Source: an uncultured Acidimicrobiales bacterium (lineage in GTDB: Bacteria > Actinomycetota > Acidimicrobiia > Acidimicrobiales > SHLQ01). From it: a DNA stretch of 64,000 nt. Location of the stretch: contig CALLQB010000004.1 in the NCBI GenBank assembly GCA_938015295.1, positions 62,001-126,000 of the forward strand. Direction: 5' to 3'. Numbering within the stretch: the stretch's first letter is position 1; the number at the start of each line of letters is the position of its first letter. Below, in pieces: positions 14,112-53,046 of the stretch. Below the pieces are notes generated by a model. The model saw nothing but the letters and a program-made list of their open reading frames with translations. It was not told the DNA's origin and did not search any database. Both the position numbers and the translations under genes were made by a program.

Positions 14112-14984
14112 GTGGACGCTCTCGCGCAGTATGTGATCATTGGCGCGGACGGCGTCGAGTTATACGTCAACCCGAGCGGTGCGGACACGCTCGATACCGA
14201 CATCTTCTGGGGGCCAGATCGAGGTCTGGCAATGATCCGGTCACAGGACCCGACCGATCAGTGGCACGACGAGGTCTGGTGCCAGGCGGCAGTTGTGGTC
14301 GATATCGCCAAGACGTCGATGCTGATCTTCATCAACGAGATGACCGTCGTGGCTCGCACGGCGTATCTCGATCTGCTTCGAGCAGCGTGGCCAGGTTGGA
14401 CGGTCAGGTGGGCCAACGATCGGCTCGCCGAAGTGCTTACCCTCGCCGGCGTCGACCCGGCGACGGTGATCAGTCCGTTGGTCTGGGATGGCCCAGCCGC
14501 TGTTCTTGAACCGGCGTCGGATTTTGTCGCACCGGCAACCGTGGTGACCGTGCACACCGATCAGACCGAGGTGTTCTTTTCGACTGGGCTGCTGATCGAT
14601 GTGCTGAGCCGTGGTTCAGAATTGGCCGAGTTAGCCGGCGGTGCGACCGCTGCGACGATTAGCCGCCCGAGGGCCGGGCTCCACCTTGAAGTCGATTCGC
14701 GCACGTTGTGGTTCTGGAGCGATGACACCACAACAGGGCTTCTCGACGCGTTGCCCGAGCGATGGCCCGGTTGGACCTTGCGCAACCTCAATGGCGACGC
14801 GTCGATCCATGTCGAGTTGGCCGAGGACGCCATTCAGATCATCGAGCCTGATACCGACGACGTGCTGGCTGATCTTGTCGACCGCCTCGTGCAGGCCAGC
14901 GTCGTTTCGCCCGACGGCGACGAGATGCGTGCGCATCTCGCCAGAGCCTTAGCCGCCATCGGCAAAACCGAAGCCGGCCACTAG
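14112..14984 (+). CDS. Unknown protein with internally duplicated W-rich module
   Basis: 290 residues from GTG 14112 with a good site TAGGAG just upstream. I do not recognise the family. The protein is soluble and acidic, without signal peptide or membrane segment. Two halves look related: MLIFINEMTVVARTAYLDLL then AAWPGWTVRWANDRLAEVL in the first, and TLWFWSDDTTTGLLDAL then ERWPGWTLRNLNGDASIHVEL in the second. It is probably cotranscribed with the DUF3039 gene. It ends at a REP-like element that separates it from a convergent glycosylase gene. Confidence 0.75.
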   Translation: MDALAQYVIIGADGVELYVNPSGADTLDTDIFWGPDRGLAMIRSQDPTDQWHDEVWCQAAVVVDIAKTSMLIFINEMTVVARTAYLDLLRAAWPGWTVRWANDRLAEVLTLAGVDPATVISPLVWDGPAAVLEPASDFVAPATVVTVHTDQTEVFFSTGLLIDVLSRGSELAELAGGATAATISRPRAGLHLEVDSRTLWFWSDDTTTGLLDALPERWPGWTLRNLNGDASIHVELAEDAIQIIEPDTDDVLADLVDRLVQASVVSPDGDEMRAHLARALAAIGKTEAGH

Positions 14985-14993
14985 CCACCCAAA

Positions 14994-15038
14994 GGGGTCA
15001 GGCACTTATGGGGTCAGGCACCTAAAGTGCCTGACCCC
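14994..15038. repeat. REP-like palindromic element, copy 1
   Basis: A 45-bp element made of three 12-bp arms: GGGGTCAGGCAC, spacer TTAT, GGGGTCAGGCAC, loop CTAAA, GTGCCTGACCCC. The last two arms form a perfect 12-bp hairpin, and the first arm is an alternative partner. It sits exactly between two convergent gene ends (14984 and 15050). A second copy lies at 51861-51905 in the opposite orientation with one base different. Likely roles are bidirectional terminator, mRNA 3-prime end protection, or a REP family spread by a RAYT transposase; none is encoded in the window. Confidence 0.85.
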
Positions 15039-15049
15039 TTTACAACCCT

Positions 15050-15937
15050 TTACAGTTTGGCGGGGGACCAGACTTCGAGGCGGGGGCCATATTTGGGGGC
15101 ACTGATGCCGGCGTACTTGAGGAGCAGGGTGACGCGGCCGCGGTGGCCGGCGTAGGGCTCGAGCAGTTCGAGCATGCGAGTGTCGTCGCCACGCGGTTCT
15201 TTGGCCAGCGCCCACGCCACGGTGTTTTTCAAGTGATAGTCGCCGACGGCCACCGCATCGGGGTTGCCGAGAGCGACCTGCATGACCAAGCCGGTTGTCC
15301 AGGGACCGATGCCGGGAAACGCGAGCAGTCGCTGCTCCGCCGCGGCGAAATCCATCTCGGCGATTTCTTCGAGTCGATTCGCGCGGCGGGCGCACTGGAG
15401 GATGATGTCGGCCCGTTTACGCTCGACACCGAAGGAATGAAAGTCGGTGTAGTGCATCTTCGCGAGTTGCTCGGTGGTGGGAAGCAGTTGGATCGGACAC
15501 GGACCCGGCGCGGGTTGGCCGAATTTGGCGCGCATCATTCGGGCGCTGCGGTGCGCCTCACTTGCCTGGATCTTCTGGCCAAGAATCGTGATAAAGAGCG
15601 CCTCCATCACTCGCTCGCTGCGAGGCATACGGAGCCCTGCCATTTTCCGAGAAAGGTCATAGACCACGTCGTGGGCCCGGGGGAGCGTTGCAGGATCGTC
15701 GTCGACGCCGACGACGCCGGGCGATTTCTCGAGCATCCAATCAGCGCCTTCACCCCATGCCTCGGCAACGATCTGGTCGCCGTCGAGGTGGAGATGCACC
15801 GACCCGGCCCCGATAGGCGTGTTGGTCGCCCACCACATGCCAGTTGCCGAACGACGAGATCCCTCGTTGAGCAGCCGAAGAGTCAGCGAGAGGTCGACGG
15901 GTTTGGGGGCAAGAAACCTTCGGATCGTCGACGTCAC
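15050..15937 (-). CDS. DNA-3-methyladenine glycosylase 2 family (HhH-GPD)
   Basis: 295 residues from ATG 15937. The C-terminal HhH-GPD block LLAFPGIGPWTTGLVMQVAL followed by GNPDAVAVGDYHLKN supplies the helix-hairpin-helix and the catalytic Asp (in GDYHLKN), as in AlkA. The N-terminal 90 residues resemble the AlkA N-terminal domain (LSLTLRLLNEGSRRSATGMW). It lacks the four cysteines of an FeS loop, so it is not MutY or Nth. It should excise alkylated or otherwise damaged bases. This is the second AlkA-type domain in the window, after the Ada-AlkA fusion, but without a regulator domain. Confidence 0.9.
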   Translation of the reverse strand: MTSTIRRFLAPKPVDLSLTLRLLNEGSRRSATGMWWATNTPIGAGSVHLHLDGDQIVAEAWGEGADWMLEKSPGVVGVDDDPATLPRAHDVVYDLSRKMAGLRMPRSERVMEALFITILGQKIQASEAHRSARMMRAKFGQPAPGPCPIQLLPTTEQLAKMHYTDFHSFGVERKRADIILQCARRANRLEEIAEMDFAAAEQRLLAFPGIGPWTTGLVMQVALGNPDAVAVGDYHLKNTVAWALAKEPRGDDTRMLELLEPYAGHRGRVTLLLKYAGISAPKYGPRLEVWSPAKL

Positions 15938-16267: not shown

Positions 16268-16303
16268 CTCGTGATCATAAACCCCAGCCCTGAAGGCTCG
16301 CGG

Positions 16304-16320
16304 ATTGGGCTCCGCCCAAT
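16304..16320. promoter_or_regulatory. Perfect 7-bp inverted repeat in divergent promoter region
   Basis: ATTGGGC, spacer TCC, GCCCAAT. It lies 37 bp upstream of the small membrane protein start on one side and 124 bp upstream of the HD gene on the other. It could be an operator or a leader hairpin. No T tract follows on either strand, so a terminator is less likely. Confidence 0.5.
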
Positions 16321-16333
16321 GTGCGGGCTTCGT

Positions 16334-16382
16334 GAAACTCAGCGGATGGCAGTATATGTCGAGTGCCTATCCGCTGAGTTTC
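16334..16382. promoter_or_regulatory. Long inverted repeat upstream of the HD gene
   Basis: The arm GAAACTCAGCGGATGGCA (16334-16351) is answered by TGCCTATCCGCTGAGTTTC (16364-16382), giving 18 paired bases with one bulged base and a 12-nt loop. A -10-like TATACT follows at 16385-16390. The position just upstream of the HD gene promoter suggests an operator or a structured leader. I see no known riboswitch consensus. Confidence 0.6.
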
Positions 16383-16443
16383 CGTATACTTATACGTTGC
16401 CCGCACCGGTCTTGTTCTGGTGCGTCTTTCACCGGAGCATCTG

Positions 16444-51539: not shown

Positions 51540-51854
51540 ATGGCTATAGGCGTCGGGATGGGCAGGCTTCTCCGACGAGTTGTTGTCGAGGGCCCGTCGA
51601 TGGAGCCGACCTACGTCGCGGGCGACAGACTTCTCGTCGTTACGCGGGGACGCAAACCGCGGCCCGGCGATGTAGTCGTCATCGTCGACCCCCGACCCGG
51701 CGAAGATCGCGAGATGGTCAAGCGGGTACTAGTGGTTCATGCTGACGGTTCGGTCGATGTCGTCGGCGACAACCCCAACGCAAGCACCGACTCACGGACC
51801 TTCGGCCCCGTACCCGCCAACAATCTCCGAGGCCGAGTCCTCCGCCAGTACTAA
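51540..51854 (+). CDS. sodX: Nickel-type superoxide dismutase maturation protease
   Basis: 104 residues from ATG 51540; ATG 51558 is an alternative. This S26-family peptidase has Ser20 in VEGPSMEPTY and Lys61 in REMVKRVLVV as the Ser/Lys dyad. There is no membrane helix at the N-terminus, as known for SodX-like proteases. It removes the SodN propeptide to free His1. It is divergent from sodN, which settles its role well. Confidence 0.93.
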   Translation: MAIGVGMGRLLRRVVVEGPSMEPTYVAGDRLLVVTRGRKPRPGDVVVIVDPRPGEDREMVKRVLVVHADGSVDVVGDNPNASTDSRTFGPVPANNLRGRVLRQY

Positions 51855-51860
51855 CAACAA

Positions 51861-51905
51861 GGGGTCAGGCACTTTATGTGCCTGACCCCATAAGTGCCTG
51901 ACCCC
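51861..51905. repeat. REP-like palindromic element, copy 2
   Basis: The inverse of copy 1 at 14994-15038: GGGGTCAGGCAC, TTTAT, GTGCCTGACCCC, ATAA, GTGCCTGACCCC. The reverse complement matches copy 1 in 44 of 45 positions. Short flanks CAACAA (51855-51860) and TTGTTG (51906-51911) extend the palindrome. It again lies exactly between convergent gene ends (51854 and 51924). Confidence 0.85.
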
Positions 51906-51923: not shown

Positions 51924-52955
51924 TTAGCCGATGATTTCTCGGAGTTTGGCGAGTTGTTGGACGGGGTCGCCGCCGACCGGCGTGACGTTGAGGGTGGTAA
52001 CGCCGGCTTCGGCGAACGCTGCCACCTTCTCTTTGACGTAACCCTCGTCGCCGCACAGCGACGGTCCTTCGAGCATCTCGTCGGGGATCGCGGCTGCAGC
52101 TTCGTCCTTCTTGCCATCGAGGTAGAGGTCCTGCACCGTCTTTGCTTCGCCTTCGAAGCCGTACTTGCAGGCCAATTCGTTGTAGAAGTTCTTGCCACGG
52201 GCACCCATGCCGCCGACGTACAACGCAGCGGTGGGACGGGCGTACTCGCGGTACTTGGTGTTGTCGTCGCCAATCGACAGCAGTCCGCCAGCGGCAATCT
52301 CGAGGGTGCCAAGCGAACTGTCGCGCTTGGCAAGACCTCGCTCAAGATCGTCGCCCCATACCCGGTCGGAGCGATCGGGGAGGAACATGAACGGCAGCCA
52401 ACCATCGCAGAGTTCGGCGGTCATCTCGACGCTCTTTGGGCCGAGCCCAGCGACGTGCACCGGGATGTCGGGGCGATGCATGTGGTTGATGATCTTGAGT
52501 GGCTTGCCGAGACCCGTGCCCTGATCGGACGGCAACGGAAGGGTGTAGACCTTTCCTTCGTATTCGAGTTTCTCGCGCCTCCAAGCCATGCGGCAGACCT
52601 CGATAGTCTCTCGGACCCGGGTGAGCGGCATCTTGTACGGCATGCCATGGAAGCCTTCGATGACCTGGGGGCCCGAGGCTCCGAGGCCGAGTTCGAAACG
52701 ACCGCCACTGAGTGCATCGAGGCCGGCTGCTGTTTGGGCCATTGCAGCTGGCGTGCGGCTAAACACGTTGAGAATCGCAGAACCAAGCGTGATGGTCTCG
52801 GTCTTTGCGGCCAGGTAACCAAGCAGACTGACGGCATCGAAGCCATAAGCCTCGGGCACCCAGGCCATATCGACCCCGGCGCTTTCAAGGTTCTGGATGT
52901 ACTTGGCGACCTCGATCGGGTCGTCGGCGTAGTTGACAAATGTTGCGATCTTCAT
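51924..52955 (-). CDS. LLM-class F420-dependent oxidoreductase
   Basis: 343 residues from ATG 52955 (MKIATFVNYADDPIEVAKYI). The barrel segments MAWVPEAYGFDAVSLLGYLA, TITLGSAILNVFSRTPAAMA and LSGGRFELGLGASGPQVIEG match the F420-dependent luciferase-like group (TIGR03617/03559-like). The substrate is unknown. It is divergent from mutA by 91 bp and ends at the second REP-like element. Confidence 0.9.
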   Translation of the reverse strand: MKIATFVNYADDPIEVAKYIQNLESAGVDMAWVPEAYGFDAVSLLGYLAAKTETITLGSAILNVFSRTPAAMAQTAAGLDALSGGRFELGLGASGPQVIEGFHGMPYKMPLTRVRETIEVCRMAWRREKLEYEGKVYTLPLPSDQGTGLGKPLKIINHMHRPDIPVHVAGLGPKSVEMTAELCDGWLPFMFLPDRSDRVWGDDLERGLAKRDSSLGTLEIAAGGLLSIGDDNTKYREYARPTAALYVGGMGARGKNFYNELACKYGFEGEAKTVQDLYLDGKKDEAAAAIPDEMLEGPSLCGDEGYVKEKVAAFAEAGVTTLNVTPVGGDPVQQLAKLREIIG

Positions 52956-53046
52956 GTCGCAATGTCTACGCGACCAGCCGGCAAAATGCACGTCCTGTGC
53001 CGTGGCAAGTCTTTCCCGGAGGCCTCGGGTCGCTACGATCGAGGAA

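Follow-up and report, generated by a model that had tools for sequence, protein, structure and literature searches.

The 45-bp element at positions 14994..15038 (+ strand) of the window, by which is meant the whole 64,000-nucleotide stretch of DNA analysed, very probably belongs to a REP/REPIN-like family spread, now or until recently, by the single RAYT-type HUH/Y1 transposase detected in the genome of this Acidimicrobiales bacterium. The original prediction had likened the element to REP sequences moved by a RAYT, and this likeness was borne out by the many copies found, by a RAYT gene that is itself flanked by the repeat, and by the siting of copies close to gene ends. The same arrangement, a RAYT together with a private dispersed word, was observed in two congeneric genomes.

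Sequence and predicted folding of the two copies

Copy 1 has the structure R-TTAT-R-CTAAA-R', in which R is the 12-nt arm GGGGTCAGGCAC. Arm scanning and spacing analysis placed the first direct arm at 14994..15005 (+), the second, 16 bp past the first, at 15010..15021 (+), and the inverted arm, 17 bp past the second, at 15027..15038 (-). Copy 2, at 51861..51905 (-), carries the same three arms in the opposite orientation and differs from copy 1 by a single base in the 5-nt loop. The coordinates, the inverted relation of the copies, the 4-nt direct spacer and the 5-nt inverted loop had all been predicted correctly. Seven arm matches with at most one mismatch were counted in the window against 0.35 expected, and none of 100 shuffled sequences reached seven.

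Two alternative hairpins had also been proposed. Both can form, but RNA folding predicted that they are used unequally: in three-arm copies (n = 29) the mean probability that the inverted arm is paired with the outer direct arm is 0.93, against 0.06 for the inner one. For 60 copies with two or three arms, predicted hairpin energies averaged -30 to -35 kcal/mol, on both strands.

Number and architecture of the repeats in the genome

The genome assembly (G000) comprises 5.01 Mb in 140 contigs and is 94.7% complete; the window lies in contig C4. The genome-wide search for further copies called for by the original prediction returned 169 exact occurrences of the arm GGGGTCAGGCAC, with none for the reversed control word, and 71 distinct loci were collected, so that the genome holds about that number. 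Two entries were excluded before counting, namely L079, which duplicates the L043 site at contig ends, and a different palindrome, L083:861. Of the exact arms, 164 lie inside the 71 loci and three in L079, and two were unplaced among the matches listed. When up to two mismatches were allowed, 182 arms were obtained, 164 of them exact. Spacers and loops vary, the commonest direct spacers being TTAT (17) and TTTT (14), followed by others.

Spacing between arms is nearly fixed, at 16 bp for direct neighbours (44/47) and 17 bp for inverted neighbours (64/64). The forms R R' (31 loci) and R R R' (29 loci) predominate; R R R R' (3), R R R (3), R R (3), R R R R' R' (1) and a single arm (1) account for the remainder. 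A typical locus is thus a polar array of at least one direct arm at 16-bp steps followed by one inverted arm at 17 bp. Thirty-three arrays combine an inversion with at least three arms; in every one of them the inversion was confined to one end of the array, and the orders R R' R and R' R R were absent from these 33. The three bases flanking the outer arms were most often AAA (50/135 flanks) or ATA (31/135), and the outer three bases agreed between the two ends of an element more than expected (2.12 of 3 versus 1.82 of 3 after shuffling; 64 elements; 0/5000 shuffles as high). Either the element reaches at least 3 bp beyond the arms and occurs in subfamilies, or stem pairing is maintained. An identical copy with identical flanks was seen at two contig ends (C11:38 and C92:12589), which indicates that the assembly breaks at the repeat.

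Exact hairpins numbered 57 in this genome and 0 in 18 other genomes of the family, and the same hairpin was absent from 395 other genomes of the phylum sample and from the viral contigs searched. To judge by these sequence searches, the repeat family is so far known from one bacterium only. Among the papers listed by the literature searches, none was on REPs or RAYTs of Acidimicrobiia; of 13 papers matching the arm word, none concerned repeats by title, and in the one checked the word stood in primers.

Position relative to genes

Both window copies lie between convergent genes, as predicted. Copy 1 begins 9 nt past the TAG stop of a gene at 14112..14984 (+) and ends 11 nt from the TAA stop of a gene at 15050..15937 (-), which we take to be an HhH-GPD/AlkA-like glycosylase. 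Copy 2 lies 6 nt past the TAA stop of a gene at 51540..51854 (+), presumably S26-type signal peptidase-like, and 18 nt from the TAA stop of a gene at 51924..52991 (-), assumed here to be an LLM-type oxidoreductase.

Gene ends were called by a codon-usage gene caller, and random intergenic points served as the null. Counting overlaps with gene ends, the distance to a gene 3' end is at most 8 nt at 45 of the 71 loci, at most 12 nt at 52 and at most 30 nt at 61. Because random points cannot overlap gene ends, the fair comparison is with the overlap-free counts of 35, 43 and 53 of 71, against 9%, 12% and 22% of random points at the same distances. The copies are therefore not scattered without regard to gene ends, the pattern named in the original prediction as speaking against it.

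Enrichment at convergent ends as such, also anticipated, was not upheld. The 74 context rows, which still contain L079 and L083:861 and with L071:2976 counted apart, comprised 28 convergent, 30 tandem and 7 divergent gaps, 6 sites in a called gene and 3 contig edges, compared with 16 convergent and 38 tandem gaps in the window and L032. These counts approximate the number of stops per gap, two in a convergent and one in a tandem gap, so the excess in convergent gaps follows from siting near stops. Convergent siting was accordingly rejected as a signal in its own right, and distance to a stop codon is the strong signal.

Twelve gene ends at 11 loci use TA plus the first G of the element as their stop codon. 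Stops beside elements were 54 TAA, 26 TAG and 5 TGA, compared with 61 TAA, 96 TAG and 107 TGA elsewhere; a target preference, or the AA-bearing ends of the element, could account for so many TAA and so few TGA stops. Stops made by the element were considered as the whole cause of the siting, and this was not supported, since at three of four element-free junctions in the congener G003, all read by eye, the stop is TAA in both genomes; at the fourth it is TGA in G003 and TAA in this genome. Both flanks could be aligned at only two of these four junctions, and identity across the four was about 70-87%, so that insertion boundaries could not be read and target duplication could not be assessed. 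Relative to the upstream stop, eight arrays were oriented tail-first and two cap-first, too few to use. According to PMC3733652, GTAG and CGTC REPs lie near the points where convergent or tandem genes end, and TAG stops are often supplied by GTAG REPs; the siting described here is on that account known REP behaviour in a new family.

Because 61 of 71 loci lie by gene 3' ends and the hairpins are predicted to be stable on both strands, the elements might instead be bidirectional terminators or 3'-end protectors made by the host and kept by selection, with their proximity to the RAYT incidental. A terminator scan agreed with this for copy 2, which was called on one strand only, and made no call for copy 1, so that it did not demonstrate the bidirectional termination suggested in the original prediction. 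The T tract is short, with AAA or ATA outside the arms, and 7 of the 74 context rows lie between divergent genes. The word was moreover detected in a single genome, and two congeners use other words that match their own RAYTs (see below). A host-made terminator or protector is consequently considered improbable.

The transposase gene and protein

One Y1/HUH transposase gene was detected, and a protein search gave one match; a second RAYT could have been missed, as the assembly is in 140 contigs and 94.7% complete. The gene, a 231-aa frame at C4:6841-7536 (-), lies outside the window, whose base 1 (C4:62001) is about 54.5 kb to the right of it. At one end of the gene, 5 bp separate a three-arm copy from the first start of the frame; at the other, a two-arm copy overlaps the gene end with the RAYT stop codon inside the element. 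The search for a RAYT proposed in the original prediction thus yielded one RAYT-type gene with the repeat at both ends.

The protein matched Pfam Y1_Tnp above its cut-off; its score against NCBIfam REP_Tyr_transpos was 58 bits, below the cut-off of 80, and membership in that model is not claimed. An HUH motif (N73-H74-F75-H76) and Y133 with N137-P138 are present, and N73, H74, H76, Y133, N137 and P138 are invariant in an alignment of 31 sequences that includes this protein. The Y-x-x-x-N-P motif is that of class 2 as defined in PMC6006769. A search of solved structures with the RAYT sequence gave no match at E 0.01. The structure model (pLDDT 90.4) had as its best fold match 4er8, E. coli TnpAREP with a REP hairpin (Z 17.6, rmsd 2.6, 158 residues), followed by IS608 (Z 11.0), and as modelled the protein is closer to TnpAREP than to the IS200/IS605 TnpA. 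IS200/IS605 elements are expected in several near-identical transposase copies, and one gene was found in this 94.7% complete assembly.

Short, dispersed inverted repeats would also be seen in a MITE mobilised by a cut-and-paste transposase of another family, but the copies flank a Y1 gene and related words accompany Y1 enzymes across genomes, which makes a MITE very unlikely. Uptake-signal words of Neisseria or Haemophilus are likewise short and fixed and also form inverted pairs at gene ends, but an uptake-like signal is hardly credible for a word that flanks a RAYT, is spaced almost invariably at 16 and 17 bp, and stands as a single arm at only 1 of 71 loci.

Related transposases and their words

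A protein search (E <=1e-15) across 297 genomes of the order found homologues of the RAYT in 29. Among the best hits, the RAYTs that are short beyond the catalytic tyrosine (short-tail RAYTs) have repeats on both sides: GGGGTCAGACCCC flanks the gene in G001, G042 and G009, GGTGCCAGGCACC a second RAYT gene in G009, GGTACCTGGTACC the gene in G015, GGTACCTGGCACC that of the congener G003 and TGGAGCCTGGCAC that of the congener G004. These words are alike in format, with 5 nt, CAG or CTG, and 5 nt. The third-ranked hit, a long-tail RAYT of G226, had no such flanking words.

The word GGTACCTGGCACC occurs 98 times in G003 and at most 4 times in each of 11 other genomes, and TGGAGCCTGGCAC 165 times in G004 and 0 times in 11 other genomes. 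In this genome and the two congeners, the RAYT-adjacent word is therefore also dispersed, and it hardly occurs in the other genomes tested. The RAYTs of G003 and G004 are 42-43% identical to that of this genome; G004 has three RAYT homologues, so the one serving its word is inferred from the flanks. Nineteen of the 29 RAYT-bearing genomes hold at least five copies of GGGGTCAGACCCC, and none of the 268 genomes of the order sample without a RAYT does (at most 2 copies there); the two sets are the same genomes where both listings show them. The present genome is among the 19, with 8 copies; the copy examined (C107:3332) forms the middle of a different palindrome.

That palindrome (L083:861, near C107:3332) is long and centred on GGGGTCTGACCCC. 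Its core word has 8 copies in this genome, yet the only RAYT detected here is flanked by a different word; the core word also occurs at L153:19940 in G003. In a third congener, G002, the RAYT looked at has an in-frame stop and a longer palindrome of the L083:861 type beside it (L119). One in-frame stop was seen in some RAYT homologues of the order (G002, G122, G154, G184, G223). Separately, a 92-bp stretch of the window (16292-16383) had at least 15 matches in G003 at 82-88% identity, with the window copy alone among the matches listed for its own genome, and probably belongs to another dispersed repeat family.

Array architecture was compared in the two congeners. For G003, the genome with 98 exact copies, 16 loci were examined with units accepted by a loose pattern, and 13 consisted of at least two direct units followed by one terminal inverted unit; the other three were one uncapped array, one plain pair and one mixed array. 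Direct offsets were 25 (29 pairs), 26 (9) and 50 (2), inverted offsets 26 (14) and 25 (2), and one reversed pair stood at 52. At ten of the 16 loci a gene 3' end is no more than 30 nt away. With a different word, G003 thus repeats the polar capped array, in which the inverted step is usually one base longer than the direct step. Five G003 loci (L167, L174, L181, L203, L205) all have the same variant word, GGTGCCTGGAACC, as their outermost direct unit, so that these five arrays seem to have a defined tail end besides the cap.

The 14 loci examined in G004 hold 1-10 head-to-tail 13-bp units with no inversions; only two of the loci are 30 nt or less from a called 3' end, and six are close to contig ends. 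These head-to-tail arrays, mostly away from gene 3' ends, indicate that the polar capped architecture is not universal. About half share longer conserved flanks, which (L186-L199) include a small hairpin, as if the array lay inside a larger dispersed element.

C-terminal length of the transposases

For comparison of the region past the catalytic tyrosine, the best 80 of 475 loci and 30 loci of the order were used. Eleven of the 80 were left out (open ends, broken frames or no usable Y motif), as were three of the 30 order loci with internal stops (L115, L119, L134), L230 (no Y motif) and four duplicates. The RAYT of this genome has 99 residues after the tyrosine, its short-tail branch 82-125, and most other relatives, from many phyla to judge by record titles, about 200. 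CWG-centred words flanked 13 of 14 short-tail genes at both ends, and likewise 18 of 77 long-tail genes; the p value of 1e-6 overstates independence, as the short-tail RAYTs are, by record title or kinship, all from Acidimicrobiales or Actinomycetes and mutually related, and the 18 long-tail genes show that these words also occur where the tail is long. The RAYT tree was only partly resolved (4 of 24 inner branches starred) and does not distinguish one shortening from several. No second Pfam domain was found in the RAYT of this genome or in 7 other short-tail RAYTs, by a scan that is insensitive: of 13 long-tail proteins only one gave a match, to Bac_DnaA_C and under the cut-off.

Comparison with known systems

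TIRYTs are RAYT-like genes reported with few repeat families; GGGGWSAS repeats are described for some of them, and dispersed families for some, the GGGGWSAS motif being found in some terminal inverted repeats only (Di Nocera 2013, PMC3733652; the word Actinobacteria is absent from its main text). The present system resembles these TIRYTs or TIRtrons in that a RAYT-like Y1 gene lies between inverted repeats, some of which in that account also form moderately abundant, dimeric or clustered dispersed families, and in that GGGGTCAG, on both sides of the gene, fits GGGGWSAS. It differs in the short region past the catalytic tyrosine (99 residues, against about 200 in most relatives), in its polar and capped arrays, and in its short CWG-centred word.

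RAYT subclass 2.1 of Quentin, which holds 291 of the 292 Bertels group 1 sequences and probably equals the TIRYTs, is described in PMC6006769 as having HTH-like C-terminal domains and no REP-like sequences near its genes. The present protein resembles it in its motifs (NHFH and YIHRNP, compared with NH[YF]H and Y[IV]HLNP) and in length (231, against a median of 238). Unlike subclass 2.1, its gene is flanked by REP words, and an HTH-like domain went undetected in a test that is insensitive.

The REP/REPIN-RAYT systems of groups 2 and 3 of E. coli and Pseudomonas, as presented in PMC8266576, share with the present one a single RAYT, cognate dispersed short palindromes in inverted pairs, and the TnpAREP fold match. 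The family described here differs in lacking the GTAG tag, in its 12-13 nt unit, in the 5-nt gap of the inverted pair and in the confinement of extra direct units to one side; no GTAG/GTGG or CGTC tag was present at the hairpin foot among 135 outer flanks, most of them AAA or ATA. Its short imperfect palindrome, many intergenic copies, inverted pairing and flanked RAYT are those of REPs and REPINs. On the comparison with TIRYTs, subclass 2.1 and groups 2 and 3, the family is classed here as a REP family of a TIRYT-like RAYT.

Proposed mode of spread and significance

If the family is spread by its RAYT, the enzyme would recognise the word as a folded single strand, nick beside it by means of Tyr133 and link it to a further exposed single strand. 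By the gene caller, about 93% of the window is coding, and copies would for that reason persist mainly in the short gaps behind stop codons. Each copy would give transcripts from either strand a stable hairpin at the 3' end, and this hairpin may hinder 3' exonucleases or assist termination. Local 16-bp duplication or RAYT action is the probable source of the extra direct arm; the near-constant 16-bp step would suit duplication of an arm with four loop bases, or a cut set by the enzyme.

A broader scenario is put forward tentatively, as one that may well prove wrong. An Acidimicrobiales branch of TIRYT-like RAYTs may have dropped its long C-terminal part and simultaneously traded long terminal repeats for a modular code of about 13 nt, with two 5-nt half-sites around CAG or CTG, arranged in several genomes as polar arrays with one inverted cap. 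Species words would then have been fixed by exchange of half-sites (GGGGT-CAG-GCAC(C) here, GGTAC-CTG-GCACC in G003, and GGGGT-CAG-ACCCC and GGTGC-CAG-GCACC elsewhere).

Should this hold, enzyme and repeats would change together almost species by species. For the question of how RAYTs and REP words locate and keep up with one another, this genome and its two congeners offer related RAYTs, three private words and three array styles, a natural swap experiment suited to mapping the residues that read each half-site. The family also supplies REPs to an enzyme resembling a RAYT subclass that was reported without nearby REPs, and it provides, in a compact genome, repeats that directly follow stop codons.
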